DNA of 64,000 bases from Acidithiobacillus ferrianus (GTDB lineage Bacteria; Pseudomonadota; Gammaproteobacteria; Acidithiobacillales; Acidithiobacillaceae), in the NCBI RefSeq assembly GCF_010378095.1, contig NZ_WNJL01000022.1, positions 1-64,000 on the forward strand, read 5' to 3'. How positions within the stretch are numbered: position 1 is the first letter of the stretch; the number at the start of each line of letters is the position of its first letter. The notes beneath the pieces are model-generated. The model was not told the DNA's origin. It was given only the letters and a program-made list of their open reading frames with translations, and made no database searches. Shown one piece after another: positions 3,164 through 55,905 of the stretch. A program made the position numbers and the translations under genes.

Positions 3164-3165
3164 GG

Positions 3166-8644: not shown

Positions 8645-8671
8645 GCTCTGGCGAGTTGCGCGAATTGTAAG

Positions 8672-9553: not shown

Positions 9554-9670
9554 CCAGTGGGAACCTCCGCTTCATTTCGCCCCGGTTAACGGATCGTGAC
9601 CGCCCGAAACCTACGGAATGGGTACCACCAACCTGTGTGAGTGGCCATAGGGATGGCGGATCGATGCGCA

Positions 9671-9702
9671 AAACGAAAAAAGCGCCGTCCGAGAGCGGCG
9701 CC
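9671..9702 (-). terminator. Rho-independent terminator of the cold-shock gene
   Basis: Read on the minus strand, GCGCCG pairs with CGGCGC (9701-9696 and 9687-9682) around an eight-base loop and is followed by TTTTTTCGTTTT. It lies about 25 bases past the csp stop codon. This is a standard intrinsic terminator. Confidence 0.85.
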
Positions 9703-9726
9703 CTGTGGCGATCATCCAAACAAGGA

Positions 9727-9930
9727 TTATGCCTCGCGTACGTCCTCAGCCTGCATACCCTTTGGTCCGCGCACGCTATTGAATGTGACACGCGCACCTT
9801 CCGTCAGGGTCTTAAAGCCGTTGCCTTGTATGGCGGAATGATGCACAAACACATCCTCCTTGCCATCTTCCGGGGTGATAAAGCCAAAACCCTTGCTATC
9901 ATTGAACCACTTTACCGTACCAGTTGCCAT
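9727..9930 (-). CDS. Cold-shock domain protein (CspA family)
   Basis: A 67-residue protein consisting of a single cold-shock domain. The RNP-1-like K-G-F-G-F-I and RNP-2-like V-F-V-H-H motifs are present at about residues 13-18 and 27-31. Such proteins bind single-stranded RNA or DNA and act as RNA chaperones. Length and sequence fit the family exactly. The gene has its own probable promoter about 50 bases upstream and a strong terminator, so it is monocistronic. Which paralogue it corresponds to (CspA, CspD and so on) cannot be told. Confidence 0.96.
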
Positions 9931-9978
9931 GTGAAGAACTTCCTATTGCGTTGAATCTGGACCATTTGTCCAACTGGG

Positions 9979-10007
9979 ATAGTAAGATGTTTTGTTCCGG
10001 TGCGCAA
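9979..10007 (-). promoter_or_regulatory. Probable sigma-70 promoter of the csp gene
   Basis: On the minus strand TTGCGC (10007-10002) and TACTAT (9984-9979) are separated by exactly 17 bases. Transcription would start about 40 bases before the csp ATG. The -35 box matches the consensus at four of six positions. Confidence 0.5.
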
Positions 10008-10068
10008 GGATATCTTCCCGCACAATGTGCCGCCGCCAGGTTCGGCGGATCAGTTGTGCTGGGCGCTA

Positions 10069-11010: not shown

Positions 11011-11246
11011 ATCTGTCTCCTTCGACGCTTGATCCAGAGTACCATTAGAAACCCTGTGGCCCCTCCATGGTCAGGTGGCTATGGTAGTGGATGCGCATTT
11101 ATTTGGTCCAGGTTGTGGGTGCGGTTTCAGGTTCTCCAGTTGCTGGAGCAACCGCTTGGACGATTGTACGGTATTCCCCATGAGTTGGCGATCGCTGCTC
11201 ATGGAGATGCTTGCGCGCGTCATTAAAGAGTCTAAAAGAACCTACA

Positions 11247-12728
11247 TCAGTAGGCCCCGTTGCGTGCAAAAACGACCTTCACCGTGCGTAACAGAATCAC
11301 GATATCATACCAAAGGGACCAGTTTTTCACATACCAGGCATCCAGGTCCGCGCGATCCGCAAAGGTCGTTTCAGAGCGTCCGCTCACCTGCCACAGACCT
11401 GTGATACCCGGTTTTACCTGGGTATATAAATGGATGCTGTCACCATAGCGGTGTAACTCACGATTTAACAGCGGCCGTGGTCCGACCAGGCTCATCTGAC
11501 CTTTCAGCACATTGAAGAGTTGGGGAAGTTCATCGAGACTGGCGCGCCGCAGCAAACGTCCGATTCGTGTCACCCTGGGATCGTTGCGCAACTTGTAATT
11601 TCGCTCATATTCTGAGGCGATTTCAGGATGAGACTGTAAATATTCAGTCAGGCGAACCTCGGCATCGAGAACCATGCTTCTGAACTTCAAACACATGAAG
11701 GGTTTCCCATCCCTGCCGATGCGTTCTTGGAGAAAAAAAATGGAACCTTTATCCTCGGCATGAATCCGCCAGGCCAAAAACAGCAGGAGTGGCGAGAGCG
11801 CAATGACAAGGAGTGATGCGGCAATCAAATCGAAGATCCGTTTTAAAAGCCGGGGTCCTGGTCGTGCTAAATTGTCCCGCACCCTCAACATGAACACTTC
11901 TTGACTAAAAAAGTGCATTATTTCCAGGCCAAACAACGGGAGCCCTCGTAATGGCGGCGCGATGGTCAACCGCGGGTAGCTCAACCCCAGTGCGCGAACG
12001 AGTTGTTCCTGCGCTTCCCACTGATCCATATCCAGTGCGAGAACGACATGCGGGTTGCCTAAATCGGCGAGTTGTCCCAGGGGATTGTTCCCCAAAGATT
12101 CGACTCCCACCTCAGGAGGCACCTTGCCCGGAGAGGGAGTGCTGCAACCGCGGGGCACGAGCATTTTCTTGACGGAATAGCCCAACAGCGGCTCGCTGGC
12201 GATGGCCCGCATAGCTTCCACGGCATTGGGGCCGCTACCGATCAGTACCACGGGCCGTGCCCAGGCACCTAGGCGGACCAGACCCCAACGTATGGAATGT
12301 CTGAAGATGGGTAAAAGCAATAAGACGAGCGCCCAGGTTGAAAACAGCCAAAGGCGGGAAAGAGGCCATTTTCCGATGAACGCGATCGCGGCATTCAATG
12401 CGATAAAAATGGTGAGCACCGCCAAGACATCGCCTGCCTCATCCCAGAATGCTTTGCGCTGGGCGTAGTGACCCTTGAGAGAAAAACTGGTAATAACGGA
12501 TACAGTGAGTAGCAGAAATAGCAGGAGATTGATTTGCGCTAAAGTTCCCCACCAGTGAAAGAGCACCCAGATGGGATCCAATCCGTAATATATCGCGTGC
12601 GACAGCCTCGCAAAGTAAAAAGCCAAAAGGAACGCAACGATATCTCCTAGGGCCAGAGCATAAGGAACCCAGTGAGACCATTGTAGCGTCGTATTGATTC
12701 TTGCCGTCGATTTAATGGTAACCACCAC
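11247..12728 (-). CDS. Polyprenyl-phosphate sugar phosphotransferase (WbaP/GumD type), starts EPS repeat unit
   Basis: This enzyme should transfer a sugar-1-phosphate from a UDP-sugar to undecaprenyl phosphate, the first committed step of EPS unit assembly. The N-terminal third holds about five membrane helices. A Rossmann-like block begins at L-I-G-S-G-P-N-A-V. The C-terminal bacterial sugar-transferase domain has K-R-I-F-D, the K-F-R-S-M block, D-E-L-P-Q and S-L-V-G-P-R-P. The start is uncertain: GTG codons at 12728 and 12725 follow a GGGGA box and give about 493 residues, close to GumD; the frame stays open to 12908. It lies last in the minus-strand EPS arm. Confidence 0.85.
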   Translation of the reverse strand: MVVTIKSTARINTTLQWSHWVPYALALGDIVAFLLAFYFARLSHAIYYGLDPIWVLFHWWGTLAQINLLLFLLLTVSVITSFSLKGHYAQRKAFWDEAGDVLAVLTIFIALNAAIAFIGKWPLSRLWLFSTWALVLLLLPIFRHSIRWGLVRLGAWARPVVLIGSGPNAVEAMRAIASEPLLGYSVKKMLVPRGCSTPSPGKVPPEVGVESLGNNPLGQLADLGNPHVVLALDMDQWEAQEQLVRALGLSYPRLTIAPPLRGLPLFGLEIMHFFSQEVFMLRVRDNLARPGPRLLKRIFDLIAASLLVIALSPLLLFLAWRIHAEDKGSIFFLQERIGRDGKPFMCLKFRSMVLDAEVRLTEYLQSHPEIASEYERNYKLRNDPRVTRIGRLLRRASLDELPQLFNVLKGQMSLVGPRPLLNRELHRYGDSIHLYTQVKPGITGLWQVSGRSETTFADRADLDAWYVKNWSLWYDIVILLRTVKVVFARNGAY

Positions 12729-12933
12729 ATTTCCCCGTTTTGTCTTATCTGAAGTGGTACGGATTGGCGAACGGCGCATTCCGTTATAACCTGCTCCAGA
12801 CATTTTGGCTTCATGCCAAAGATCGGGAGCAGTAGGATAGCCCTGCCAGTGTTCCGAAAGCAATATGACCCTCCGGGTGCGGTGAGTTGAGTGCTGAAGA
12901 AAGCGCACGCCCCGGTCAAATGTTTACCCTCTT

Positions 12934-14106
12934 TTATGGTGAGGTGCTCAGAATGGGATGCCCCACCGTTTGCAGGGGAACCTGAATGACTTCATCCAGC
13001 CTCGTGTACATGCCTTCGAGAGAAAAACGCCGTAGGGCGGACTCCCGGCCGCAACGGCCCATGGTTGCCGCGGCTTCCGGATTGTCGATGACGCTCATGA
13101 CGGAATGACTGAGCGCCTGTACATCTCCTGGTGCGTACAGCACCCCAGTCACACCATGTTCGATGATTTCATTGGGGCCGCCGGTTTGGCTGGCAACCAC
13201 CGGTTTGCCCGCAAGCATCCCTTCGACTACTACCCGACCGAAGGGCTCAGGGGCGATGGAAGTATGTGCCACGACATCGCAAGCGCCCATGAGACTGGGG
13301 ATATCTTTCTGAAAGTCCAGAAACTTGACGCGCTCGCTCAATCCGAAGTCGTGCACATCGCGACGAAGACTTTCGGCATAGGTATCCTCTCCGAAGAGGG
13401 GGCTTCCGACGATCATTCCTTGCACCGCGGGCATTTGCGTCAGGGCGCGTAAAAAAACGTCTTGTCCCTTCCAGGGGGCGAGCCGTCCAAACAAGCCGAC
13501 CAGCGGACGTTTGTCAAAACCCAGTTGCCGTCGCGTATTGGCGTTTTCTGCCTTGCTGGATCGGCCATATGTTGCCGTATCGAAGGCGTTGTAGACGAGA
13601 TGTACGTCCTTTTCCCGTGATGTAAGCGCGATGAGCGAGTCCCGTGTTGCTTCGGAGTTGACCAGAATCTGATTCGATCTGCGCGCTGTATATTTTGCGG
13701 CAAAGAGCTGGGCTCGACCAAAGTGTTCTGAGGTCAGGATGTCATGGAGGTACCAAATGACGGGTTTTTTGGATAAGTGGCTTGCCAGCACCGACAGAAG
13801 CCCGGCTTTTTGTGAATTCGCAAAGATGTAATCGAAGTTCTTGGCCTCTACGGCCAAGTCCCTGGCCATTTTAACCATGGCTGCCACACTCGTTAACGGA
13901 ATCCGCGAGCTACGTCTTATGCAACTTATAGATTGTGCAGATTTTATAATGCCAACAGGCACATCACGTTGTTGTAGTTCACTAACCAATGGCCCATCTT
14001 CAAATAAGATAACCTTGCTCTCGGTGCGGTAATGTTTAACGATTTCAAGTAATGCCAATTCGCCACCACCGAGTTTCGCCGTCTGGTCAACAAATAATAT
14101 TTTCAT
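12934..14106 (-). CDS. Glycosyltransferase family 4
   Basis: A 390-residue GT-B fold enzyme. The N-terminal domain opens with KILFVDQTAKLGGGE, the glycine-rich loop common in GT4. The C-terminal domain shows the G-R-L-A-P-W-K-G-Q-D segment, then P-E-P-F-G-R-V-V-V-E-G-M (the E-x7-E donor site region) and a following G-K-P-V-V-A-S. It should add a sugar to the lipid-linked EPS unit in the cytoplasm; donor and linkage are unknown. Its ATG overlaps the previous gene's stop by four bases, so translation is coupled to the neighbouring glycosyltransferase. Confidence 0.88.
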   Translation of the reverse strand: MKILFVDQTAKLGGGELALLEIVKHYRTESKVILFEDGPLVSELQQRDVPVGIIKSAQSISCIRRSSRIPLTSVAAMVKMARDLAVEAKNFDYIFANSQKAGLLSVLASHLSKKPVIWYLHDILTSEHFGRAQLFAAKYTARRSNQILVNSEATRDSLIALTSREKDVHLVYNAFDTATYGRSSKAENANTRRQLGFDKRPLVGLFGRLAPWKGQDVFLRALTQMPAVQGMIVGSPLFGEDTYAESLRRDVHDFGLSERVKFLDFQKDIPSLMGACDVVAHTSIAPEPFGRVVVEGMLAGKPVVASQTGGPNEIIEHGVTGVLYAPGDVQALSHSVMSVIDNPEAAATMGRCGRESALRRFSLEGMYTRLDEVIQVPLQTVGHPILSTSP

Positions 14107-43601: not shown

Positions 43602-46340
43602 TTACGCCTTGATCTCAAAGCGCAGGTAGTCCGCGAGCCGTTTCGACTCGTTGATTTCGTCGTGGGGCACCAGCAGGTATTTCCAGGGCTTGGTGCCTAC
43701 GTTCGCCGCGTGATCGGAAGCGTGCTTGCACCACTGCATGGCGGCCGCTGCCTTGGCCTGAACCTCCTGGGCATTGATATCGACGCGCGCCTTGGTCTCC
43801 ACCATGAAAATAGTGGTGTCCGTCTCGGCCACGAAGTCGGGGATGTATTCCGGCTGCTCGGTGCCGAGCTTGTAGTAGATCTGGAACTGTCCCTTCGCGG
43901 GCTTGAGCCATTTCGTCGCGTCGCGCTCCAGGATGATGGCGAAGCGCCGTTCGGTGTCCGAGTCGAACTTCTGCAGCGGGTACAGACAACGCGCGAAGCC
44001 ACCGAAGAGCATCTGCTTGATGCGACTGGGATCAAGCACGGTCTCCCGGAAGTGGTGGGCCGTCTGGCCTGCCGTGGCGGTGTAGTTGCAGGGCTTGAGT
44101 TCGGTGAAGCCGCGACTGACCTGCACCTCGTACTCGGTCGCCGCCTCCCAGAAGTGGACCATCATCTGCGCGTGGATTTCCCGTGCGATCAGGCGGCGAT
44201 CCCGGTCCAGCACACTGACGGCTTCCGTCTCCGATAGGTAGCTGTGCAGGTGCTGCACCATCTGGCCCGCGAGGTCGTAGAGCAGATCGGTGTGGGTGAA
44301 GTAGTCGATGTCGTCGAAGTCCACCAGCGCGTGGACGATGTAGTCCTCCGGGCGCTGCTCCTTGAGCCCGACCTCGGCGGCCAGGGTGAACTGCTCGTTG
44401 GTGCGCAGCATCTGGCCGACGATCTCGCGGCTCCCCGGCTGGAGATGGAGCTGGCTCACATCCAGCTTGAAGGCGTGGAAGCCCGTCGTGACCTCGCCAG
44501 TCGGCACCACCGCGATGCGCGGGATGTCGATGGTCTGCTGCACCACGATCTCGGTGGTCTTCGCCACCACAGCGGACAAGTCAAGTGCGGGGACTGATTC
44601 ATCCACGCCCGCCAGCAATTCGCCTTGCAGCGGCTTCAACCGCTCCGCCACCTCCGCGAGGATCACCGATTGCACCTCTGGTTTCAGCAGCGCGCTGCTG
44701 GTGGGCACCAGATCGCGCCTGACCTCGTACTTCCCGATCACGTCCATCACCACGCGCGCGGCCTGCTTCTCCGCCTCCGTGGTGAACACCGGCTTGGGCG
44801 CGGGGACTTCCGGTCCACTGTCAGTGGCTGAAGCCCCTGTGATCACGATCGATGCTTCCGTCAAACCGAGACGCGCCGCCGCCCCGGACTCGACCTGCAC
44901 GCTGACCTTCTTGTCGGAGGCAGCAGGCGCATCGAGGATGATCTGCTTCAGGCGAATCGGCGAATCGCCGCGGTTGGCCTCGTCGATGATCTCCTGAAAC
45001 TTGTCGTGGGCGACGATGTTGAGGCGATCCACCGATGCCACGCCGGTGCGTTTGCCGTAGGGCAGGCGCAGACCACGACCGATGGACTGCTCGATCAGCG
45101 TGCGCGCGTTGGCGGCACGCAGCGGCACGATGGTGTAGAGGTTGGTCACGTCCCAGCCCTCCTTGAGCATGTTGACGTGAATCACGATCTCGGTCGGCTC
45201 GTCCACGCTCTCCACGGCCAACAGGCGCGTGATCATCTCCTCTTCTTCGGCGCCGGTACGGCTGGAATCGACCTGGATCACCTTGCCCGCGTACCGGCCC
45301 TCGTAGAAGGCATCGGACTCGATCAGCGCCTTGAGCTGCGCCGCGTGCGTGGTATCGCGCGCAATCACCAGCATGAAGGGCTTGACGATCTGCACACCGT
45401 TCTCGCGGGCGTAGGTGAGCATCTCGACTTTGGTGGTCTCGTGCAGGCGTACGCCGTCTTCCAGCTTGGTCTTCTCGATCTCCTCGGGCGTGTGAGCCTT
45501 GGCGTCGAAGTTGCGCTGGGTGACCACGGCGGGCTCCTTGACGAAGCCATCCTCCATCGCCCGCGCCAGCGGATAGTCCATCACCACGTTCTTGAACGGC
45601 ACCGGCCCTCGGCTGGACTCGACGAAGGGCGTCGCCGTCACTTCCAGACCGAATAGCGGCTTGAGCTCGTTGATGGCGCGCACCCCGGCGCTGGCCCGGT
45701 AGCGGTGCGACTCGTCCATCAGCAGCACCAGGTCAGGCAGATTCGCGAGATGGTTGAAATAGCTATCGCCCAGCACTTCCTTCATGCGCTTGATGCGCGG
45801 CTCCTTGCCGCCGCGCACCTCGGAGTTGATCTTGGAGATGTTGAAGATGTTGATGCGTACCAGCTCATCGACATAGCCTTGCAGTTGCTCGCCAACTGCG
45901 CTTCCCGTCTGGTCATAGTTGTCGCCGGTGATGATCAGCGGCGCTTGCTGCGCGAATTCGGCAATGCCTTTGAACACGTACTTCGGCGTGTTGCGCGTGA
46001 AGTCCGTGATGAGCTTGTTGTAGATCGTCAAGTTGGGGGCGAGCACGAAGAAGTTGTTGATGCCATGTGCCAGATGCAGATAGGCGATGAAGGCTCCCAT
46101 CAGGCGCGTCTTGCCCACGCCGGTAGCCAGGGCAAAGCACAGCGACGGAAATTCGCGCTCGAAGTCCGCAAGCGTCGGAAACTCGGCCTTCAGCGTGGCG
46201 AGGATTGCAGCGATGTCACGCTCGTGGCCCAAGAGTTCGGGCGCGGCCTCGATGGCGCGCACCAACCTGGAAATCGATTCCGCCTGCGGCGGACGCAGGG
46301 ACAGGCGGCCCGTGATGTGGTTCTGTACGCGGGCGCTCAT
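43602..46340 (-). CDS. Type III restriction-modification system, restriction (Res) subunit
   Basis: A 912-residue protein. Helicase motif I is A-T-G-V-G-K-T (about 73-79), motif II M-D-E-S-H-R (about 210), and a C-terminal helicase domain carries I-G-R-G-L-R-L (about 425). The far C-terminus has a PD-(D/E)xK nuclease: I-P-D-F (about 830) and V-E-T-K-A (about 843). This is the layout of type III Res enzymes, which need Mod to recognise DNA and cut about 25-27 bases away. It overlaps the DUF1016 gene by four bases and is the last gene of the defence operon. Confidence 0.92.
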   Translation of the reverse strand: MSARVQNHITGRLSLRPPQAESISRLVRAIEAAPELLGHERDIAAILATLKAEFPTLADFEREFPSLCFALATGVGKTRLMGAFIAYLHLAHGINNFFVLAPNLTIYNKLITDFTRNTPKYVFKGIAEFAQQAPLIITGDNYDQTGSAVGEQLQGYVDELVRINIFNISKINSEVRGGKEPRIKRMKEVLGDSYFNHLANLPDLVLLMDESHRYRASAGVRAINELKPLFGLEVTATPFVESSRGPVPFKNVVMDYPLARAMEDGFVKEPAVVTQRNFDAKAHTPEEIEKTKLEDGVRLHETTKVEMLTYARENGVQIVKPFMLVIARDTTHAAQLKALIESDAFYEGRYAGKVIQVDSSRTGAEEEEMITRLLAVESVDEPTEIVIHVNMLKEGWDVTNLYTIVPLRAANARTLIEQSIGRGLRLPYGKRTGVASVDRLNIVAHDKFQEIIDEANRGDSPIRLKQIILDAPAASDKKVSVQVESGAAARLGLTEASIVITGASATDSGPEVPAPKPVFTTEAEKQAARVVMDVIGKYEVRRDLVPTSSALLKPEVQSVILAEVAERLKPLQGELLAGVDESVPALDLSAVVAKTTEIVVQQTIDIPRIAVVPTGEVTTGFHAFKLDVSQLHLQPGSREIVGQMLRTNEQFTLAAEVGLKEQRPEDYIVHALVDFDDIDYFTHTDLLYDLAGQMVQHLHSYLSETEAVSVLDRDRRLIAREIHAQMMVHFWEAATEYEVQVSRGFTELKPCNYTATAGQTAHHFRETVLDPSRIKQMLFGGFARCLYPLQKFDSDTERRFAIILERDATKWLKPAKGQFQIYYKLGTEQPEYIPDFVAETDTTIFMVETKARVDINAQEVQAKAAAAMQWCKHASDHAANVGTKPWKYLLVPHDEINESKRLADYLRFEIKA

Positions 46341-47437
46341 TCTTTTTCCCCTTTATCTTCTCCGCCAACGTGTAAGTCGCGCTTACCGGTTGCCGCTTCA
46401 AACTCCCCGTCGTCAATCGCCCCCAGTTCGCTTTCCAGTTCCTCCACCGTCGGCAGGCTGGTGACCAGCGCTTCCGGCAGGGCACGCACCAGTTGGTATT
46501 CGGCCACGCCTATGGGCTTGTCGATGCCGGACAGCGCGTATTCGGCCACCGTCCGTTTCTTGGTCTTGCACAACAACAAGCCGATGGTGGGCTTGTCGTC
46601 GGGGGCCTTGATCTGCCTGTCCACGGCGGTCAGATAGAAATTCAGTTGCCCCGCATGTTCCGGCTTGAAGGCCGTGGCCTTCAGTTCCACGACCACGTAG
46701 CACTTGAGCCGCGTGTGATAGAAGAGGAGGTCAACGAAAAACTCATCGCCTTCGACCTCCAGCCGGAACTGACGGCCCATGAAGGCAAAACCACTGCCCA
46801 GCTCCAGCAGAAAGCGGGTGATATGCCGCACCAGCGCATTTTCGATGTCGCGCTCATGCGCTTCATCGCCCAAGCCCAGAAAGTCGAACAGATACGGGTC
46901 TTTCAGGGTTTCATGCGCCAGTCCCGAATGCGGCACAGGCAGGCGCGCGTCAAAATTGGTGACCGCCTGGCCTTGCCGCTCGTGCAGCCGGTTGCGGATA
47001 TTCAGTTCCAGCGTGACGCGCGACCACCCAGCGGCGATGGCCCTTCGGGCATACCATTCGCGTGCAGGATCGTCCTTCAGGCGTGTAATCAGTACGACAA
47101 TGTGGAACCAGGGCAATTGTGCAGCAAGCTGCTGCACAATTTCAGCGTCCGGCCAGGCTTCGGCAAAGTCCCGCATATACATCAGGTTGCGCGCGGAAAA
47201 TCCTTTCATTTCCGGAAAGGCCGCGCGCAAATCCCGCGCCAACCGCTCGATCACCTTGCTGCCCCAGCCCTGCGCGGACTGGCGCTGCAGAATGTCGCGG
47301 CCGATCTGCCAGTAAAGCCGGATCAACTCCGCATTGGCCGCCAGTGCTGCGCGCTGGCGGGCTGTCGCCACACGCGTCTTGATGTCAGCCAACCAGTCGG
47401 CGTAATCCGCCGGGATTGCACTGATTTTCCTGCTCAT
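46337..47437 (-). CDS. DUF1016/YhcG-type PD-(D/E)xK nuclease
   Basis: A 366-residue protein. The N-terminal DUF1016 winged-helix part (about 1-170) includes LIRLYWQIGRDILQRQ and F-S-A-R-N-L-M-Y-M-R-F-type blocks. The C-terminal nuclease domain (about 215-330) has F-F-V-D-L-L-F-Y-H and V-V-V-E-L-K-A, the D and ExK residues. YhcG proteins often accompany restriction systems, but their exact role is unsettled. It lies between mod and res, with four-base overlaps on both sides, so all three are translationally coupled. The ATG at 47437 is set by the mod overlap. Confidence 0.88.
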   Translation of the reverse strand: MSRKISAIPADYADWLADIKTRVATARQRAALAANAELIRLYWQIGRDILQRQSAQGWGSKVIERLARDLRAAFPEMKGFSARNLMYMRDFAEAWPDAEIVQQLAAQLPWFHIVVLITRLKDDPAREWYARRAIAAGWSRVTLELNIRNRLHERQGQAVTNFDARLPVPHSGLAHETLKDPYLFDFLGLGDEAHERDIENALVRHITRFLLELGSGFAFMGRQFRLEVEGDEFFVDLLFYHTRLKCYVVVELKATAFKPEHAGQLNFYLTAVDRQIKAPDDKPTIGLLLCKTKKRTVAEYALSGIDKPIGVAEYQLVRALPEALVTSLPTVEELESELGAIDDGEFEAATGKRDLHVGGEDKGEKE

Positions 47438-49230
47438 GCCCCGTCCTCCCCGCCATCGCCAAACAGGTCGGGCACGAGCGCTGCCTGACACCCTCTCCCC
47501 CTGGGAGAGGGCCGGGGCGAGGGCGCTTTGGGCTCCGGCTCCGCCATCGGCAGATTGGCCACGTTGAGGCTGTAGTCGTCGTGCCCCCACTCGCAGCGGG
47601 CCAGCACCATCTTCGGGATCTTCTTCAGCGTCAGGTTCGGCCAGCGCTCCGCCGCCTTGGCCGCCGTAACGCCGTGGAAAGCCGAGCAGCACACCAGCAG
47701 GCTCCGCTCCGGGCCGACTTCATCGGACAGCGCCTGCAACTGCTCGGCGGACAGATTCTGCGTGGTGACATAGATGAAATCGCGCTCGCTGGAGTGGCCG
47801 TGCCGCCACCAGTGCGTTTCCGACGGCGCGTAGATGAAGCCCTCCAGCTTAGCCAGCGCCTCGGCCAGTTGCGCGGCGTTGTATTCTGGGTTGATGACCG
47901 GGTTGCCCCAGCGGTCGTTGACGATCAGGCTGGGGGCCAGGCGGTAGTAGCGGAAGCCGCCGCCGCCCTGCCAACCAACTGTCTTTGATATCCCAGACTG
48001 ATCTTCACCATCAATGATAGTTTTGAGTCGAGGAATGATATGAGTGTGGCAATGCTCCCCAAGCTCGACCATGATCCAGCGGCGACCCATCTTGTGTGCA
48101 ACAGCTCCGGTAGTCCCGGAGCCAGCAAATGAATCAAGAACAATGTCCCCAATTGTCGTGGAAAGTTCAAGACACCTCTTGATTAACGCCTCGGGCTTTT
48201 TTCCATTCGGGAACGAAACCCCCCCCTCGTTATGCAGGTTGTTCGATAGCAAGTCATCCCAAAGATTCGTTAGAGGCGAGGCGGTCGTTGATTTACCGTC
48301 AATGATGCGAGTCTTGGATTTGTAGAAGACTAGCTGCTCGCCCCCGAGGAAGTAGTAGTCATCTTTGTCTTCTCGCACAGATCGGTAAACCTTGGTGCGG
48401 TCAGCGGTTGATCGAGCAAGGGCATCTCTCGCCGACTCGTTGACATCCTTGGGAGCAACCCGTGCGGTGCGAACAACTCGATGGGCGTTGGTCACGACAA
48501 AATCGGACAACTTGACTTCAAGCTTATCTGCGAATTTCGCTTTGGCATCATCCCACGATTGCAGTCTGTTGCTGCGAAGGAATGCCTCACGAAGCCCGAT
48601 AAGGCACCAATCTTGGAAATCGTCCTCATAATTCTCGATGTACTTTGAGTACCTGTCATCGCGAGGCCCGGGAACATAGACTCGGTTCGGAGACCAGACA
48701 TCCTTATTCTTCGCGTAATACAGAATGTAGTTATTTGTCGTTACAAGCCCTGGATTGATGGCTTTCGGCCCTGAGGCCGAACTCTGCTTGAAGGTCACGA
48801 CCCCGATGCGATTGCGCCGACCGAAAACTTCGTCAAGCAATGCGATCAGATAGCCAAGCTCGTTGTCGTCGATGTGCACGAACAGCGACCCGTCATCGGA
48901 CAACAATCGCCGAAGAGATTCGGCGCGATCACGAATGAGTCCAAGCCAAATGGAGTGCTCGTATCCATCGTCGTAGTGCTCAAATGCTTGTTGCGTATTA
49001 AAGGGCGGGTCGATGTAGATGCACTTCACCTTGCCGGAGAACTCCTGCTCCAACGCCTTGAGCGCCAGCAGGTTGTCGCCGAAGATCAGCCGGTTGTCGA
49101 AGATGTCGTTGTCCGACACGCGATGCTTGGCGTGATATGACTTCTCTGGATCTTCGAGCAGGATGCGTGGCTCCAGCTTGGGCCGCTTCTCCTTCCCGAT
49201 CCAGGTAAGTTCTAGTTTTTGTTTGCTCAT
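47434..49230 (-). CDS. Type III restriction-modification system, methyltransferase (Mod) subunit
   Basis: A 598-residue adenine-N6 methyltransferase of the beta group: the catalytic I-Y-I-D-P-P-F-N (about 70-78) comes before the SAM-binding D-S-F-A-G-S-G-T-T (about 365-373), with the target-recognition region between. It protects self DNA and guides Res. The central part (about 48000-48790, residues about 147-410) is clearly more AT-rich than the ends, suggesting exchange of the recognition domain. A GC-rich palindromic repeat is inserted in frame near the C-terminus. It has no simple-repeat tract of the kind that makes many mod genes phase-variable. Confidence 0.93.
   Translation of the reverse strand: MSKQKLELTWIGKEKRPKLEPRILLEDPEKSYHAKHRVSDNDIFDNRLIFGDNLLALKALEQEFSGKVKCIYIDPPFNTQQAFEHYDDGYEHSIWLGLIRDRAESLRRLLSDDGSLFVHIDDNELGYLIALLDEVFGRRNRIGVVTFKQSSASGPKAINPGLVTTNNYILYYAKNKDVWSPNRVYVPGPRDDRYSKYIENYEDDFQDWCLIGLREAFLRSNRLQSWDDAKAKFADKLEVKLSDFVVTNAHRVVRTARVAPKDVNESARDALARSTADRTKVYRSVREDKDDYYFLGGEQLVFYKSKTRIIDGKSTTASPLTNLWDDLLSNNLHNEGGVSFPNGKKPEALIKRCLELSTTIGDIVLDSFAGSGTTGAVAHKMGRRWIMVELGEHCHTHIIPRLKTIIDGEDQSGISKTVGWQGGGGFRYYRLAPSLIVNDRWGNPVINPEYNAAQLAEALAKLEGFIYAPSETHWWRHGHSSERDFIYVTTQNLSAEQLQALSDEVGPERSLLVCCSAFHGVTAAKAAERWPNLTLKKIPKMVLARCEWGHDDYSLNVANLPMAEPEPKAPSPRPSPRGRGCQAALVPDLFGDGGEDGA
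47491..47523. repeat. REP-like palindromic repeat inside the 3' end of mod
   Basis: CCCTCTCCC and GGGAGAGGG form a nine-base stem, followed by CCGGGGCGAGGG. This is the form of a widespread proteobacterial intergenic palindrome. Here it is read through in frame, adding a Pro/Ser/Arg-rich insert (P-S-P-R-P-S-P-R-G-R-G) about 30 residues before the Mod stop. Confidence 0.7.
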
Positions 49231-49240
49231 GACATTACTC

Positions 49241-51031
49241 TCATAGTTGTGGCGCGCGGCTCGACAAGTAGTCGATCAGGCGCTTGCGCGGAGACGCGTC
49301 CGCTGCATTCTGAATATTGCGTAGTGGCGCTATGGCCGGATCGGCGCCCAGCGCAAAGTGTGTTTCCATCAGGTCAGCCAGGAAGGCCACGACGTTGCCC
49401 TGGTTGCGGAAGTAGGCCAGCGGCCCCTCAAGAACGAGTCGCTGCTGGCCGAGGTCGAAAGTCTGCTGTCGGAGCTGATCGAGCGGCTGGCTGATCAGTG
49501 CGTGAGTCGCCGCCGGATCGATGACGGCTGCCGCGCCGATGCGGTTGCGCAGGCGCTTCATCATGACCGCCGTGATGACGTGCACGCCATGACGGTAGAT
49601 CAGGCGTTCCTGGCTTCGTGCCGGGGCGTTCTGCTCGTAGCCCACTACGAGAGTGCGGATCGCGCGGTGGCACAGAACGGCGTTGACCAGCACCACTCCC
49701 GGCAGGGCATCAGTGAACAGCGCTTGGTACTCGGCGGAGTCGGGATTGGCGAGCCGCGCCGGCTCACTCTTGAGCCAAACGGCGTAGCGCGGGTCGTTCT
49801 GTTGTGAGGCCAGTGCCCGCAGAGCCTCATCGAGCGTGATGGCCTTGGGGCCGGTTGCGAGGGCCTCGGGGCGATAGTGGTAATCGAAGCCGAGGTGGGC
49901 AATCTCCTGCCGCAGTCGCTCCTGGTTTTCGTCGAGCGAAGCGAAGTTTGCTGTCTGCACCGCGTTTTGATGGTTGCGCGCCTTGGTGACGCGCTTGCCG
50001 AACGGGCCGTCTGCAGGGGCTTTGATCAAGGTGAGCATCACCCTGGCGTCATCGATGCTCTTGCCCGGATGCTGTCGCACGAACTCGGCAGCCGACGCCA
50101 CCGTCTGCGCGCCGTTGATGATGGACAGGCCGCGCACCTTGAACTTCTTGACGCCATTCTTGTTGGCCTTCGGCTCGATCAGGTCGCAGACGGCCGTGAC
50201 GCCGTTGTTGAGATAGAAGAAGTCCACCGGGGCGTCATGCAAGGTTGTCTTGATGGCCTTGTTGACATCGGACTTGCTGCTGCCGAGGAAGTAGCGGATG
50301 TTGCGTTCGTACAGGGCCTTGCCGTGCGTCTGATGCAGGGTCACCAAGTCCGCCAGCCGCGCGACACCGTAGTACGTGGCTCGCGGGCTTTCGACTTTCG
50401 CGTGCTTCTGCAACGCGATATCCGTGTGCACGGGTTGGTAGGCCTGTTCCGCCAACAGATCGCGGGCGATCTCGGTCGCCGTGTAATACTCCACCTGCTT
50501 GACCAGCCGCTCTTCGTCCAGATCTTCGTCGACGAGCAGCGCCTGCAAGGCGTCGCTGGCGGTCTGCGAGATACCATCCCCCGTGTAGGGCACGACCAGC
50601 TTGATGTGGCTGCACGCATCGAGTGCCCCCTCGATATCAGCCTTCCGATTCAGGACATTCCCGTTGAACGCGGTGAAGTCTTGTTTGAGCAACAAGCGAA
50701 TGCCCTCGCAAAATGGCAGTGCATCCTCCTGTTTGAATTGCTCAGACTCCTTCAACTTGGTTTGCAGCAGGTACAGCGTCTCCGTCGGCGCGTGGTAGTG
50801 GATTGCGTCGATGCCCTTGTCGTTGAAATCATCCACGACCGAGGCGGCCGCCACCTGCGGCGTAATGTCGAGCAGCTTGTGGAGAACGAAGGCGCTGAAG
50901 GCCCGCGAAAGCTGTTTCGCCGCGTGATCGGCGGGATTGACGTTGCCGAGCAATCGCGGCAGGAACGGAACGAAGCGTTCGGCGAGCACCTTCTTTAGGA
51001 TGGTCATGTACTGAGGTTCGAGCGCCGCCAT
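49241..51031 (-). CDS. AIPR-family (abortive phage infection) protein
   Basis: A 596-residue protein. The AIPR core is recognisable from F-F-Y-L-N-N-G-V-T-A-V-C (about 270-281) and the nearby I-I-N-G-A-Q-T-V (about 305-312). AIPR proteins occur in abortive phage-infection loci and often beside restriction systems; their biochemical action is not firmly known. ATG 51031 follows a strong GGAGGGG site and shares one base with the protease stop (TGATG), so translation is coupled. mod begins ten bases after its stop. Confidence 0.9.
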   Translation of the reverse strand: MAALEPQYMTILKKVLAERFVPFLPRLLGNVNPADHAAKQLSRAFSAFVLHKLLDITPQVAAASVVDDFNDKGIDAIHYHAPTETLYLLQTKLKESEQFKQEDALPFCEGIRLLLKQDFTAFNGNVLNRKADIEGALDACSHIKLVVPYTGDGISQTASDALQALLVDEDLDEERLVKQVEYYTATEIARDLLAEQAYQPVHTDIALQKHAKVESPRATYYGVARLADLVTLHQTHGKALYERNIRYFLGSSKSDVNKAIKTTLHDAPVDFFYLNNGVTAVCDLIEPKANKNGVKKFKVRGLSIINGAQTVASAAEFVRQHPGKSIDDARVMLTLIKAPADGPFGKRVTKARNHQNAVQTANFASLDENQERLRQEIAHLGFDYHYRPEALATGPKAITLDEALRALASQQNDPRYAVWLKSEPARLANPDSAEYQALFTDALPGVVLVNAVLCHRAIRTLVVGYEQNAPARSQERLIYRHGVHVITAVMMKRLRNRIGAAAVIDPAATHALISQPLDQLRQQTFDLGQQRLVLEGPLAYFRNQGNVVAFLADLMETHFALGADPAIAPLRNIQNAADASPRKRLIDYLSSRAPQL

Positions 51032-53379
51032 CAGCCCCTCCCTCCAATCCGTGCACGCGCACGTGCCTGGGCACGGGCTTGCAGCGCCGCCCGCACCTGG
51101 GCGTAAAGCTGAGCGTTGGCCTGCTCCCGATCCGCCAGCACCACGGCGACGGCATAGGGCTCGTCCCCATCGCGCCCATCGGACCAAGGACTGTCTTGTC
51201 GGGTCACCACGACGAACACTTTGTGACCGTTGGCCAACGCCTGTTTGAAGCGCCATCGAGAGACCTGCAACGTGCCGTTCTTGCGGGTGTCGTTGGGCAG
51301 CCAGCGGCCGTTGGCGCGTTCACCCATGCCTTCTTCCCGATTGCGCCTGTAGGCTTGGGTGACCTCATCCAGGCTGCCAGCCGTCACCAGGTGGAACCAC
51401 AGTTTGGTTCTGCGGTAGTCCAACCGCGTGGTGCGCACGGCAGGGCTGTAGGCGAGCGCAACGGTCACCTCACGTGTGCGGCGGCCACCGTCCCAGAAGC
51501 TCTCTGGTAAAGGTAATTCGAAGAAGTGGTGCTGGTCGTTGCCGACGCGCTCTTCGGCCAGCAGGGTGACGGTGTGATCAAGCGAGCGGAAGAGCGCCGC
51601 ATCGTCCACGCGCCCATACCCGACGAGGCGCAGGAGTTTGTCGCGGCCTTCAGCATTGTTGCCGGGGTTCAACAGCGCTTCGCAGGCTTGCGGCCAGCGG
51701 GCATGGGCGCCGATCAGTGCGCGCAGCAGGCTGGGCGAGGCGTTGGGCACTTCGGCCAGTAGCCGTGCGGCTTGGTGGGCGACTTGGGGTGCGGCGTAGC
51801 TGGTGCCGATGTCTTCCTTAAACGCCGGCCCCAAGGCAAAGCCGCCATTGAGCGACACCACTCCCAGACCGGCATGGTCTGTGCCACCTCCAGTGCGCCG
51901 CAAGGCGATGTTGCCGGCATGCGCGACCACGTCAGGCTTGATGGCGCCGCTGGCAGAAGGGCCGCTGCGAGTTAATGGAAACGGCTGCTCCGCTCGTGCC
52001 AACACGTGGTCTTCAATCGTGTTGGGATGGCGCTGTGCATTGCGTGTGGCCTCATTCAGGCTCAAGCCGCCAACGGTCAGGGCGTTGAGCGATGTGGCGG
52101 GGTCCAGCAGGCGGGCGTGGCCTTCGAACAGGTAGTCCGGGTAACTCGCGCGTGTATCGGCTGGCAACTGGGATGACAGCAAATTGCCTGCTGGCACTAC
52201 GAACAGGACCCCCAGCTCACGCGTCAGCCAATCCAGCGTGTAGGCGAGCCCGCGCACATGACGGCCATCGTAGACCTTGTTCAGGTCGCCATAGCTTAGG
52301 TTGAAGACCCGGCAGCCGTATTGCGCATGCAGGTCGCGCACGGCTTCCTCGACCGCCTTTTCGACGAACTCGGTTTGGTCTTGTCCATCGTCCTCGAATA
52401 CCTTGCCGGAGAACAGGCGAAGTTGCGGGACGAACTGCCCCTGCTGTATGCCGCTGTGTACATTGCCATACAGCGCAAGCCCGCCGACGAAGGTGCCGTG
52501 CCAGTGGGGAGCGGTGTCATCCGAACTGCGATGCGGTGCGAGGTAGCCCTGCGCGTCGCCGACTGCTGCACCGAGCAGCGAATGTCCGCGCGTCAACCCG
52601 GAATCCAGCACGGCAATGGCCGGAGCATCGTCGGACGGGGGATCAATCTGAGGAAATTGGTTGATGTCGGTGTGAAGCAGTTGTATGGCCACGCCCAGGC
52701 GGGGCGGCAGGTCGCCAGTGCGCACATCGCGATGGTGCAAGATCTGCTCGGCCTGCGCACGGTTACAGCGCACACGGACCATGACGAGCGAGGGTTGCTG
52801 GATGTCGTCCAGCCGCTCAATGCCTTGTGCATGCAACCAGTCGAGAAAGGCACGCACCATTTCCTGGCGTTTGTCTTGTCGCTCCTGGGGCCATAGTTCG
52901 ACATCGAGCATGAAGGTTTGCGTGGCTGGAAATCCTTGCTCGCGCAAGGCCGCACCGGTACGGTCTTGGGGTGTCCAGTGGTCGAAGTCTTCGATGACGT
53001 AGAACAGCTCCTTGCGCGTGACGACGCCGTCGCGTGCAAGGGTGGCCAAGCGGCTCTCGAACTCACCCAAGCCCTCATCAGTGGCGAATGCCAGCACGAT
53101 GGATTCGTCTTCCTGGCTAACGATCTCAACGCCAGGAATGGCATCGAAGGGGGGCACGCTCTTGTCGCCCGCACGCAGCCGGATCTTCAACAGCTTGCGA
53201 TCATCGAATCCGCCGATGTCTTCTTCTGTCGCGCGTTGACGGGCCTGACCAAGCCGTCCAGCCAGCGCGGCACCGTGCGCTCTAGGATCTGCGGGCTTAA
53301 AACGGGGGCGTTTATCTTGCTGCCGATGACGATCCGTCAGAGGCTCTTCTCGCCCTAGTGTCAAGTGTTCATAGTCCAT
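51031..53379 (-). CDS. ietS: S8 (subtilisin-like) protease, IetS-type
   Basis: A 782-residue serine protease with the full triad: Asp in A-V-L-D-S-G (about 258), His in H-W-H-G-T-F-V-G-G (about 293) and Ser in G-T-S-Y-A-A-P (about 526). There is no signal peptide, so it is cytoplasmic, unlike most subtilases. The N-terminal 250 residues are of unknown fold. It sits 17 bases after an AAA ATPase, matching the two-gene IetAS arrangement known as an anti-phage system. A ribosome-binding site with GGGGGAGG lies before the ATG. The substrate is unknown. Confidence 0.88.
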   Translation of the reverse strand: MDYEHLTLGREEPLTDRHRQQDKRPRFKPADPRAHGAALAGRLGQARQRATEEDIGGFDDRKLLKIRLRAGDKSVPPFDAIPGVEIVSQEDESIVLAFATDEGLGEFESRLATLARDGVVTRKELFYVIEDFDHWTPQDRTGAALREQGFPATQTFMLDVELWPQERQDKRQEMVRAFLDWLHAQGIERLDDIQQPSLVMVRVRCNRAQAEQILHHRDVRTGDLPPRLGVAIQLLHTDINQFPQIDPPSDDAPAIAVLDSGLTRGHSLLGAAVGDAQGYLAPHRSSDDTAPHWHGTFVGGLALYGNVHSGIQQGQFVPQLRLFSGKVFEDDGQDQTEFVEKAVEEAVRDLHAQYGCRVFNLSYGDLNKVYDGRHVRGLAYTLDWLTRELGVLFVVPAGNLLSSQLPADTRASYPDYLFEGHARLLDPATSLNALTVGGLSLNEATRNAQRHPNTIEDHVLARAEQPFPLTRSGPSASGAIKPDVVAHAGNIALRRTGGGTDHAGLGVVSLNGGFALGPAFKEDIGTSYAAPQVAHQAARLLAEVPNASPSLLRALIGAHARWPQACEALLNPGNNAEGRDKLLRLVGYGRVDDAALFRSLDHTVTLLAEERVGNDQHHFFELPLPESFWDGGRRTREVTVALAYSPAVRTTRLDYRRTKLWFHLVTAGSLDEVTQAYRRNREEGMGERANGRWLPNDTRKNGTLQVSRWRFKQALANGHKVFVVVTRQDSPWSDGRDGDEPYAVAVVLADREQANAQLYAQVRAALQARAQARARARIGGRG

Positions 53380-53396
53380 GCCTCCCCCTCCATCCC

Positions 53397-54383
53397 TCAG
53401 CTCTTATGGCGATACTCGCGGGCAAGCGCGGTATCAATGTGATTTTTTTCCAGGAACTCCCGGCTGGATAGGATCATTTCCTTGACCGCGCGTCGAAGCA
53501 CCCGCTCGATGTCGGCATGCGACATGCCCTTGAACAGGGAGGCCACCTGGCCATCGTCGGGCTCGAAATTGCGGCGAATACCGGAGAGCTTCAGTGCCAA
53601 CAGGCGTTTGATCTGCTCCAGATTCGGCATCTCGAAGCGCACAACCTCATCGAAGCGTCGCCACACCGCTTTGTCCAGCAAGGTCTCGTAGTTCGTGGTG
53701 GCGATAAGGATGCTTTCTCCTCGATAACCGTCCATCATCTGCAGGACAGCATTCACGGAGCGCTTGAGCTCGCCATGATCGGCACTATCACCGCGATCCT
53801 TGGTCAGGGCGTCGAATTCATCGAACAACGCGACCACGGGCTGATCGGCGATGTAGTCGAACACCCTGCGCAAGTTGGCAGCGGTCTCGCCCAAAAACGA
53901 AGAAATGACCGAGTCCAGCCGAACTAAGATGAGGGGCATGGACAGGGCGTGTGCGATGACCTCAGCGGTCAGCGTCTTTCCGCAGCCGGGAGGCCCGCAA
54001 AACAATAGCTTCTGCGCGGGCTGCATTCCGTAGGAGCGCAGTACGTCCGCCCGGTTGTGCTCCATGAGGATCTCATCGAGCGCCGACTGCGCGGCATCCG
54101 AGAGGATGATGTCTTTTTCCTCCCGAACCACGGCGCGCTCTTCCAGTAGCGCAAGGCCGTTGTCTTTATTGGTCGGCAGGCTGGATAGCCTTTGCAGTTT
54201 GCGAGCCTTATTCCCGACCATCGCCTGATCGCCGTAAAGTAAACGCTCAAGGTCATTGGCGAGCAGATGATGGTTCTTCTCGCGCTCCTCTTTGATCACC
54301 TCCTCGGACGCTGCGCGAAAGCTCGAAGCATCGCCTTGCGTTCCCGATTTGATGAGTTGCCGCAGTAATTTTCCACTGGCCAT
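53397..54383 (-). CDS. ietA: AAA ATPase, IetA-type partner of the S8 protease
   Basis: A 328-residue protein with one AAA+ domain: Walker A G-P-P-G-C-G-K-T (about 132-139), Walker B A-L-F-D-E-F-D (about 184) and an arginine-rich sensor region with E-R-V-L-R-R (about 300). The small N-terminal domain (about 1-100) is helical. In IetAS-type systems the ATPase is thought to recognise or present a target to the protease. It is the first gene of the six-gene defence operon. GAGGAGAG precedes the ATG, and the IS1111-type element lies only about 55 bases further upstream. Confidence 0.88.
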   Translation of the reverse strand: MASGKLLRQLIKSGTQGDASSFRAASEEVIKEEREKNHHLLANDLERLLYGDQAMVGNKARKLQRLSSLPTNKDNGLALLEERAVVREEKDIILSDAAQSALDEILMEHNRADVLRSYGMQPAQKLLFCGPPGCGKTLTAEVIAHALSMPLILVRLDSVISSFLGETAANLRRVFDYIADQPVVALFDEFDALTKDRGDSADHGELKRSVNAVLQMMDGYRGESILIATTNYETLLDKAVWRRFDEVVRFEMPNLEQIKRLLALKLSGIRRNFEPDDGQVASLFKGMSHADIERVLRRAVKEMILSSREFLEKNHIDTALAREYRHKS

Positions 54384-54402
54384 ATCTCGCTCTCCTCAAT
54401 TC

Positions 54403-54416
54403 TTGACACGCGTCAA
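54403..54416. promoter_or_regulatory. Palindrome upstream of ietA, possible operator
   Basis: TTGACACGCGTCAA is a near-perfect palindrome (arms TTGAC and GTCAA) 20 bases before the ietA ATG. Its minus-strand TTGACG could also serve as a -35 box, but no -10 box follows at the right distance before the gene. No regulator gene is adjacent. Confidence 0.35.
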
Positions 54417-54442
54417 CCGCGGCCTGGTCATGCGCAGATGTA

Positions 54443-54454
54443 ATGGATGCCTCC
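54443..54454 (+). repeat. Left subterminal inverted repeat of the IS
   Basis: ATGGATGCCTCC, inverted relative to the right repeat at 55848-55859 with one mismatch. It lies 114 bases before the transposase start. Confidence 0.8.
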
Positions 54455-54567
54455 CCCTACACAGGACCGGCAGCGGGGAGTTTCTTGAGAGAGTCCTCGC
54501 TTGAACCGGACGGCATCAAGGTGCCAAGGTGGAAATTTATCCACGAGAAGGACAAGGAGGACTCATC

Positions 54568-55596
54568 ATGCAGGTTACAACATATGGATTAGATTTGGCA
54601 AAATCAGTCATGCAGTTGCACTGGGTAAACATGGAGACCGGAGAGATTCATCGCAAACAGTTGAAGCGCCGAGCGCTTCTGGAGTTTTTCGCCAACCGCC
54701 AACCGGGTATCGTGGCGATGGAAGCGTGTGGTAGTGCCCATTATTGGGCTCGGGAATTGCGTAAACTGGGGCATGAGGTTCGCTTGATCGCCGCCCAGTT
54801 TGTGCGTCCCTTCGTGAAGACCAACAAGAACGATGCGGCGGATGCGGCAGCGATCTGGGAAGCCGTACAGCGGCCTGATATGCGCTTCGTGGCCGTCAAG
54901 AGCGAGGAACAGCAATCCATCCTGTCACTACACCGTATTCGGGAGCAACTGATCAAAATGCGTACGATGCAGGTGAACCAGATCCGGGGGCTACTCTATG
55001 AATTTGGTGCCGATCTTCCGCAAGGTCGCCAGAGGGGACTGAAAGAAGTTCCTGATGCTTTGGCTGATCTGGAAAAATCCATATCGCCCATGCTGCTGGA
55101 CACCGTTCACCAGCAATTAAAGCGCCTTGAAGGGATGGACAAGGATATTGCGGATATCGAAAAGCGTTTGATGCTGTGGAAGAAAGACCAGGTGGCGGTG
55201 ACTCGATTGATGGCTATTCCCGGCGTGGGGCTACTGACGGCCACCGCCATCATCGCCACCGTGGGGGACATGAAATCTTTCCGTTCAGGGCGGGAGTTTG
55301 CGGCGTTTCTGGGGTTGGTTCCCCGCCAGAGTGGGACCGGTGGCAAGGTCCGCCTGCTGGGCATCAGTAAACGGGGAGACGTCTATCTCCGAACATTACT
55401 AACTCATGGAGCCAGGGTCGTGGTGAACTTCCAGATCAAGAACCGGAACCCATGGATTGATAAATTGCTGAGTCGACGGCCCCACAATGTGGCTGTGGTG
55501 GCATTGGCCAATAAGATGGCCCGCATGATCTGGGCGCTGCTGGCTAAGGGGCGGAGCTACGATCCACAGTACCAAGGGGTCGTGGCGGCTGCCTGA
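54568..55596 (+). CDS. IS110-family (IS1111 group) transposase
   Basis: A 342-residue DEDD recombinase. The N-terminal RuvC-like domain has D9 (Y-G-L-D-L-A-K), E52 (A-M-E-A-C-G-S) and D89/D92 (K-N-D-A-A-D). The C-terminal Transposase_20 domain begins at I-P-G-V-G and contains the catalytic-serine segment R-Q-S-G-T-G-G-K (Ser about residue 255). IS110-family enzymes act with a guide RNA encoded in the element and leave no conventional duplication. Start ATG 54568 follows AAGGAGG at 54555-54561. It appears intact and full-length. Confidence 0.95.
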   Translation: MQVTTYGLDLAKSVMQLHWVNMETGEIHRKQLKRRALLEFFANRQPGIVAMEACGSAHYWARELRKLGHEVRLIAAQFVRPFVKTNKNDAADAAAIWEAVQRPDMRFVAVKSEEQQSILSLHRIREQLIKMRTMQVNQIRGLLYEFGADLPQGRQRGLKEVPDALADLEKSISPMLLDTVHQQLKRLEGMDKDIADIEKRLMLWKKDQVAVTRLMAIPGVGLLTATAIIATVGDMKSFRSGREFAAFLGLVPRQSGTGGKVRLLGISKRGDVYLRTLLTHGARVVVNFQIKNRNPWIDKLLSRRPHNVAVVALANKMARMIWALLAKGRSYDPQYQGVVAAA

Positions 55597-55847
55597 CCCC
55601 AAAAGGTGATTATTACCGAAGTTCAGCAGAAAGAGTTGCGCAGGTAGACAAGCGATTGATGGCAGAATAGGTCAGACCGGGGAAGGGAGAGCCTGAATGA
55701 GCCTGGTCCTTTGAGGACGCTGCGCAGATAAGGACCCTTCCAGCGGATTTCATCAAGGCCAGCAGGGTAATAACCTGCGCCACAGGCCGGATATAAGGCT
55801 GTAACTCGATCTTAGAAGCCAAAAATCAAAAGTCGACTTGCACAAAC
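55597..55847 (+). ncRNA. Predicted bridge/seek guide RNA region of the IS
   Basis: The 250-base non-coding tail of the element. GGTCCTT (55705-55711) and AAGGACC (55730-55736) form a seven-base stem whose loop contains TGCGCAGAT. The run TGCGCAGATAAGG (55721-55733) equals the rebuilt empty target site across the junction. GCCTGGTC (55701-55708) also occurs in the left flank (54422-54429), in the same order. Further on, ATATAAGGCTG (55791-55801) repeats the right junction (55858-55868). A target loop followed by a donor loop is the known design of these RNAs. RNA ends and pairing are inferred. Confidence 0.6.
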
Positions 55848-55859
55848 GGAGACATCCAT
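55848..55859 (-). repeat. Right subterminal inverted repeat of the IS
   Basis: GGAGACATCCAT, the inverted partner of 54443-54454 with one mismatch. Confidence 0.8.
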
Positions 55860-55905
55860 ATAAGGCTGATGGACGGGCGCGATGATAACACTGATTCGCT
55901 ATAAC

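Follow-up and report, generated by a model that had tools for sequence, protein, structure and literature searches.

Architecture of the operon

A 64,000-nucleotide stretch of the Acidithiobacillus ferrianus genome (contig NZ_WNJL01000022.1, positions 1 to 64,000; the window) carries on its minus strand an operon of six genes that combines a predicted type III restriction–modification (R-M) pair with genes of other predicted defense families. In the direction of transcription, these are ietA (53397..54383), encoding an AAA+ ATPase (PADLOC IetA, 348 bits; Pfam AAA; Walker motifs); ietS (51031..53379), encoding an S8 (subtilase) protease (PADLOC IetS, 1354 bits; Peptidase_S8; D/H/S motifs); a gene for a 596-aa AIPR protein, a predicted nuclease (49241..51031; PF10592); mod (47434..49230), for a predicted type III N6-adenine methyltransferase (N6_N4_Mtase; PADLOC MTase_III, 656 bits; match to EcoP15I Mod); a gene for a 366-aa DUF1016/YhcG protein of the PD-(D/E)XK nuclease family (46337..47437; PF17761 and PF06250; PADLOC PDC-S02, 538 bits); and res (43602..46340), for a predicted type III restriction subunit (ResIII; PADLOC REase_III, 711 bits; match to EcoP15I Res). 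The PADLOC and Pfam matches bear out the genes, coordinates, spacings and families reported in a preliminary description of this DNA.

The ietA and ietS genes are 17 bp apart, ietS and the AIPR gene overlap by 1 bp (TGATG), 10 bp separate the AIPR gene from mod, and the mod/YhcG and YhcG/res junctions each consist of a 4-bp overlap (ATGA). We placed the AIPR start at 51031 and the YhcG start at 47437, where homologues align from or near residue 1, which yields the overlaps of 1, 4 and 4 bp; a mechanical open reading frame (ORF) caller places both starts farther upstream. This spacing upholds the earlier view of one coupled operon. Promoter-like sites (2, versus a mean of 3.1 in shuffles) and terminator-like sites (12, versus a mean of 10.3) do not exceed expectation in the region. 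The dN/dS values of 0.04–0.29, in the pairs where this ratio of nonsynonymous to synonymous substitution is computable, indicate purifying selection.

All six proteins contain the motifs that we sought as characteristic of their families and expected for activity. Res contains ATGVGKT, DESH and GRGLR (helicase) and IPDF..VETKA (PD..ETK), which we take to denote the SF2 helicase and C-terminal PD-(D/E)XK nuclease expected of a type III restriction subunit. In Mod, DPPF lies ahead of FxGxG, an order that we read as that of a beta-class N6 methyltransferase, and a variable target-recognition region spans approximately residues 141–350 (48181..48810, minus strand), as seen from a drop in identity relative to the rest of the protein: 20-aa blocks are 6–40% identical to the window Mod inside this region and 59–97% identical outside it, apart from the C-terminal tail (24–28%). 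The target regions of 21 Mods fall into 14 clusters. A REP-like perfect palindrome (47493..47509, plus strand) lies within the mod C-terminal coding sequence, where it is translated as PSPRPSPRGRG, and the Mod of one related locus, L009 (loci of other genomes are given L numbers and the window's own genome is G000), has a similar PSPQPSPRGRG tail.

Six AIPR residues (D67, D71, G73, D75, Q90 and K92) are invariant among 48 sequences down to 24% identity, and the conserved GxD..QxK is presumably the motif of MspJI/Mrr-like PD-(D/E)XK nucleases; we predict an MspJI-like nuclease domain in AIPR. The nearest sequence match of the IetA ATPase domain in the PDB is the second ATPase domain of p97/Cdc48.

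Relatives of the operon share a helicase–Mod–Res core

A scan of genome contigs with AIPR as query retrieved 21 loci at 53–94% identity. Mod follows AIPR in all 21, Res is present in the 18 loci whose contig is long enough (the L009 contig shows only the start of Res) and an SNF2 helicase is the first gene in each of the 18 loci whose contig reaches it. The best PADLOC match of the L002 helicase is DrmD (672 bits), far above its score as HmaA (172 bits). We refer to the helicase/Mod junction as slot 1 and to the Mod/Res junction as slot 2, so that ietA, ietS and the AIPR gene are slot-1 cargo in the window, the YhcG gene is slot-2 cargo, and mod and res belong to the core.

Slot 1 holds, beside AIPR, IetAS in seven of 20 readable loci, a Ppl-like ATPase in seven (its gene is broken in L020), HEC-01AB in one and nothing in five; L004 is unreadable upstream of AIPR. 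The order IetA–IetS–AIPR–Mod thus recurs with nearly the same spacing in seven other genomes of different genera (7 of the 21 loci), which exceeds chance. AIPR–Mod occurs without IetAS in the other 13 readable loci, 12 of which have a readable Res. YhcG occupies slot 2 in two (L015 and L018) of the 19 loci with a readable Mod/Res junction, RhuM does so in L009, and we identified no slot-2 gene in the remaining AIPR loci. The joint presence of IetAS, AIPR, Mod and YhcG was seen only in the window; the co-occurrence check of all six genes in order that had been proposed earlier therefore recovers the full set nowhere else and the four-gene order in seven genomes.

L016 and L019 aside, the spacing in these loci is tight, as in the window. 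With slot 1 empty, the SNF2 and AIPR genes overlap by 1 bp (5/5); with IetAS present, IetS and AIPR overlap by 1 bp (7/7 other loci); with slot 2 empty, Mod and Res overlap by 1–4 bp; and YhcG is flanked on both sides by 4-bp overlaps in the window and in L015. These comparisons show a recurrent core of SNF2 helicase, Mod and Res whose slots receive differing cargo, and retention of tight spacing within the window's own clade whatever the cargo.

The genes after Res vary among the loci, and include PDC-S06, a GHKL ATPase with a weak Shedu-like match, and GmrSD. Genes for TraD/TraG-like coupling proteins, typed by Pfam in L002 and by clustering elsewhere, lie downstream of Res in seven of the 21 loci (L002, L003, L010, L011, L014, L020 and L021).

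A Res-based sample separates core from cargo

Because AIPR had served as bait, we also searched with Res (E ≤ 1e-120) 369 genomes drawn across the class, and found 21 places in 20 other genomes. Eight of them are uninformative for slot 1, namely G209, the short L101, L104, L105, L109, L110 and L111, and L114, which lacks Mod. Among the 13 places with a recognizable Mod and enough upstream sequence, nine have the SNF2 helicase, four have IetAS and one has AIPR, which identifies AIPR as cargo rather than core. L113 is a bare SNF2–Mod–Res locus, with 5 bp and then a 4-bp overlap between its genes and no cargo; its mod is split over two overlapping frames.

The slot-1 cargo in this sample comprises SMC/LmuB-like ATPases, HEC-01AB, two Schlafen-AlbA proteins, AbiEi, an HTH-M78 protein, HepT-MNT and KwaB. 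Slot 2, readable at 18 Res places, holds Zeta in four (interrupted in L102), YhcG in three and HepT-MNT in one; it is empty in nine and ambiguous in one. A 359-aa gene between SNF2 and mod (L107:5034-6113, minus strand) and a 379-aa gene directly upstream of mod (L108:5163-6302, minus strand) have no PADLOC match and no above-cut-off Pfam match; we regard both as candidate new defense genes. L114 has decayed: it lacks Mod, and its SNF2 gene adjoins fragments of a broken Res.

IetAS is a passenger of type I and type III operons

Searching with IetS in a draw of 369 genomes across the class and a draw of 398 genomes across the phylum, with some genomes common to both, we counted 19 loci outside the window's own genome at 38–65% identity. 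Five class matches (27–33%) and three phylum matches (L076–L078, 30–36%, with no match to the R-M queries) were left out of this count. The IetS of L072 and that of L075 are each read in two frames, and L057 has only a fragment of Mod. Seven of the 19 loci adjoin type III genes or an SNF2 helicase; the six of these that are readable beyond IetS have no AIPR, and the L054 contig ends there. Four others (L058, L067, L068 and L069) lie inside type I R-M operons with the layout HsdM, 10–45 bp, IetA, 6 bp, IetS, a 4-bp overlap (4/4) and HsdS. For the remaining eight, six R-M queries of types I and III found nothing on the IetS strand up to 5 kb away, and in six of these loci ten neighboring genes were typed by Pfam as well. 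Among 531 plasmid records, the four IetS loci examined have no adjoining R-M gene among the annotated genes, except for a DNA cytosine methyltransferase approximately 1.2 kb upstream of ietA on the opposite strand in L031. R-M and stand-alone contexts interleave on the IetS tree, with at least seven changes. IetAS recurs as a passenger of R-M operons, of type I as well as type III.

This distribution bears on the idea that unrelated defense genes lie together by chance in an island. Defense genes do cluster in islands, and seven of the 21 AIPR loci have a TraD-like family downstream, yet different genera repeat the gene order, the strand, the overlaps and the slot positions. Moreover, seven of 19 IetS loci have a type III or SNF2 gene on the same strand within 5 kb; by our own arithmetic, one such locus per 3-Mb genome predicts well under 1%. 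We consider a chance assemblage extremely improbable.

The same data raise the question of whether IetAS is dedicated to R-M, as an unfoldase–protease that removes restriction subunits while host DNA is unmodified and so protects a cell that has newly received the operon. ClpXP acts on HsdR in restriction alleviation, and such a role would suit the placement of IetAS beside type III or SNF2 genes (7/19) and inside type I operons (4/19), the IetS/HsdS overlap of 4 bp in all four type I cases and the kinship of the IetA ATPase domain, by nearest PDB sequence, with the second ATPase domain of p97/Cdc48. It is difficult to reconcile with the eight of 19 IetS loci where no match to the six R-M queries lies within 5 kb, with the four plasmid loci (the L031 methyltransferase excepted) and with the many relatives whose core has no IetAS, and we judge it quite unlikely.

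Alleles are exchanged between near-identical cores

Comparisons of closely related loci point to the replacement of individual segments. L002 and L014 share 99% protein identity in SNF2 and 96% in Res, versus 87% in IetA, 78% in IetS and 75% in AIPR; at the DNA level, almost every 150-bp block up to the end of the helicase gene is 97–100% identical, identity drops to 59–84% over ietA, ietS and the greater part of the AIPR gene, and it recovers to 91–99% in res and beyond. L002 and L022 are 98% identical in SNF2, 98% in IetS and 97% in Res, versus 73% in AIPR, with DNA identity of 91–100% up to the AIPR start, where the AIPR gene begins to differ. Between L002 and L003, the DNA is 92–100% identical from the helicase to AIPR, the Mod target region differs and res is 84–100% identical; L003 has another gene after Res than L002, and L002, L003 and L017, whose cores are approximately 97–98% identical, carry different genes there. 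These sharp breaks in identity show an exchange of IetAS, AIPR and Mod target-region alleles between near-identical cores, with IetS, AIPR and the Mod target region recombining separately.

Co-variation across loci was assessed by rank correlation of pairwise divergence, for which the pairs are not independent: SNF2 and Res give 0.90, and IetS and AIPR give 0.37. On a tree of SNF2 and Res, the kind of slot-1 cargo changes at least six times and YhcG requires at least three changes. The closest cores with different slot-1 kinds are those of L011 and L012 (Ppl-like versus none; SNF2 92.8%, Res 89.8%), and the closest IetAS and Ppl-like cores are 91.1% (SNF2) and 88.6% (Res) identical.

The preliminary description had suggested that IetAS, AIPR and type III R-M are joined in one layered system. 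The recurrent link of IetAS, and that of AIPR, with type III R-M stands; the integration of six genes into one system is not supported, as AIPR–Mod lacks IetAS in 13 of 20 readable loci. In its full form, the proposal is that six genes (seven with the helicase) form one pathway made of modification state, an IetAS sensor–protease and an AIPR effector. The tight translational coupling in the window, the IetS–AIPR overlap of 1 bp kept in all seven other IetAS and AIPR loci, and the variation of IetAS and AIPR as one block between L002 and L014 would all fit such a pathway. We nonetheless think it very unlikely: besides the 13 loci just named, IetAS stands by type III genes without AIPR in six of six readable loci, AIPR has been replaced in L022 while IetS has not, and the complete six-gene set occurs in the window only. 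The sequence comparisons yield nothing that favors action of IetS on AIPR or Res, as had been put forward, and nothing biochemical speaks against it.

A proposed modular model for the operon

We propose that the operon is an R-M core, predicted to be of type III, with defense genes inserted at two fixed junctions, a reading that we hold to be probable. Mod would methylate host DNA at the site that its variable region specifies, and Res, together with Mod and probably assisted by the SNF2 motor, would cut unmodified invading DNA. IetAS (ATPase and protease), AIPR (nuclease) and YhcG (nuclease) would be expressed together with this core and work largely independently, forming a second line of defense that pays off most when a phage evades or inhibits Mod–Res. 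This separate back-up role of the modules is our inference. TgvAB, encoded within a type I operon, confers protection that is independent of HsdR restriction (PMC11411939).

Several observations weigh against this proposal. The helicase is evidently dispensable, as four of the 13 informative Res loci (L103, L108, L055 and L061) lack SNF2. Gaps of 82–766 bp are present in L016, in L019 and in loci outside the AIPR clade, where translational coupling of the cargo is thus not required. IetAS and AIPR differ as one block between L002 and L014, AIPR tracks the core moderately (rank correlation 0.68 with SNF2 and 0.65 with Res) and the value for IetS and Res is 0.73. Every member of the window's IetS clade (eight rows of the tree plus L054 and L055) lies beside type III genes or an SNF2 helicase, and IetAS clusters on the core tree, with two changes where none of 500 shuffles was as low; both would also be expected from specific adaptation to the core. 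We found no pair of cores more than 95% identical with different kinds of slot-1 cargo; the case for whole-kind exchange at slot 1 comes from the tree and from less closely related loci. Finally, TgvAB alone protects 10–100-fold less than the whole cluster against several phages (PMC11411939).

A further reading is that IetAS, AIPR or YhcG guard the core and are released when a phage inhibits Mod–Res or the helicase, like PrrC by EcoprrI. Guarding has a precedent in PrrC, encoded in a type IC locus (PMC12707154), and several cargo families are toxin-like or abortive (Zeta, HepT-MNT, AbiEi and Ppl). IetAS is also found without the core, and neither an inhibitor nor a contact surface was identified; we regard guarding as unlikely. 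It shares its structural part with the modular reading, and the likelihoods of the two overlap.

A more speculative version of our proposal, which we consider possible but doubtful, is that SNF2–Mod–Res forms a mobile type III docking chassis with two conserved sockets. Homologous recombination within the core genes would bring interchangeable defense modules into these sockets and reshuffle Mod target specificity and back-up cargo independently, and evasion or inhibition of the core would trigger the cargo.

Comparison with known defense systems

Matches to the EcoP15I subunits and a variable Mod target region are shared with type III R-M, to which the present loci add an SNF2 helicase in most relatives and the two cargo slots. 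DISARM class 1 comprises the SNF2 helicase DrmD and an adenine methylase, and a DrmD-like helicase and an adenine methylase are likewise present here; we found no PADLOC match to DrmA, DrmB or DrmC, which DISARM has together with these two, among the six genes (within the best 25 families for Mod and YhcG); the 20 flanking ORFs of the window were typed by Pfam only, and the flanks of other loci in part. MZA shares an AIPR protein (MzaE), and the window AIPR, at 48 bits versus a cut-off of 1050, is not of the MzaE type. IetAS was reportedly described by Gao in 2020. The window pair agrees with it in the PADLOC IetA and IetS matches, in the order A–S and in the adjacency of the genes (17-bp gap), and differs in being embedded in an R-M operon. 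Both proteins score below the NCBIfam equivalog cut-offs (IteA 252 of 510 bits, IteS 132 of 900 bits), and the window IetAS is a divergent branch.

Hma is a helicase–methylase–ATPase operon with the 5-methylcytosine (m5C) methyltransferase HmaB and foreign defense genes embedded in it (Payne 2021, PMC8565338). The present loci resemble it in having foreign defense genes between core genes, and HEC-01AB and an HEC-05-like gene in or beside them; they differ in that the methylase is a type III N6 Mod (N6_N4_Mtase), not an m5C methyltransferase such as HmaB, and in the much better match of the helicase to DrmD than to HmaA. Type I R-M loci with TgvAB or DarTG2 (PMC11411939, PMC12255303) likewise have a second defense pair inside the R-M operon, type I there whereas a type III core with two slots is found here. 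Defense genes embedded in Hma and R-M operons are already published (PMC11411939, PMC12255303, PMC12111858, PMC12629846), our loci conform to this concept in having accessory genes between core genes that vary among relatives, and several of the cargo families are already listed in PADLOC as HEC or PDC candidates. A traD-flanked island hotspot contains 1542 type III R-M and 797 ietAS occurrences (PMC12629846), and TraD/TraG-like genes follow seven of the present loci.

The literature searched, from which preprints and most subscription journals lay outside and whose sources were available in part, contains no description that we found of SNF2–Mod–Res with embedded IetAS or AIPR. As far as we have seen, the SNF2–Mod–Res core with two slots, IetAS as a passenger of type I and type III operons, and the evidence for allele exchange are new. 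A practical rule follows: find the SNF2–Mod–Res core, read both slots and expect defense modules there, uncharacterized ones such as those of L107 and L108 included. The occurrence of IetAS in operons of both types bears on what IetAS senses, and exchangeable slot cargo likely gives each strain a swappable second line of defense.

The helicase gene and an IS110 element

The preliminary description did not include the SNF2 helicase, which is separated from ietA by an insertion sequence (IS). The IS110-family element (54428..55865, plus strand, outer limits approximate; transposase 54529-55596; Transposase_20/DEDD_Tnp_IS110) lies next to a remnant of the helicase–ietA intergenic region (54384..54446, minus strand) homologous to L002:6589-6651. 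The SNF2 helicase gene of G000, 93% identical to that of L002, is found on contig C29, 25 bp before a 99.93% identical copy of this element, and the outer flanks of the C29 and window copies fit end to end the uninterrupted helicase–ietA site of L002. The helicase is a seventh core gene that belongs immediately upstream of ietA, and insertion of IS110 has parted it from the rest of the operon.

G000 has at least four near-identical IS110 copies, and two contigs end inside one. The flanks of three copies (contigs C15, C29 and C31) are permuted between contigs. The left flank of C31 and the right flank of C29 together make one transposase frame (read by eye), which we take to be of IS256 type; the left flank of C29 and the right side of the window copy restore helicase–ietA; and the left side of the window copy (thiC) and the right flank of C31 are direct neighbors in six of eight same-genus regions, their counterparts being approximately 7 kb apart in L094 and not seen in L095. 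The permutation likely reflects assembly errors at the repeat or repeated IS–IS recombination; the thiC/IS110/ietA join of the window may be an assembly error and, given the permuted flanks, is not to be trusted. In L095, from a same-genus genome, a related SNF2–Ppl–Mod–Zeta–Res locus (1566-13940) lies directly upstream of thiC, where G000 has IS110.

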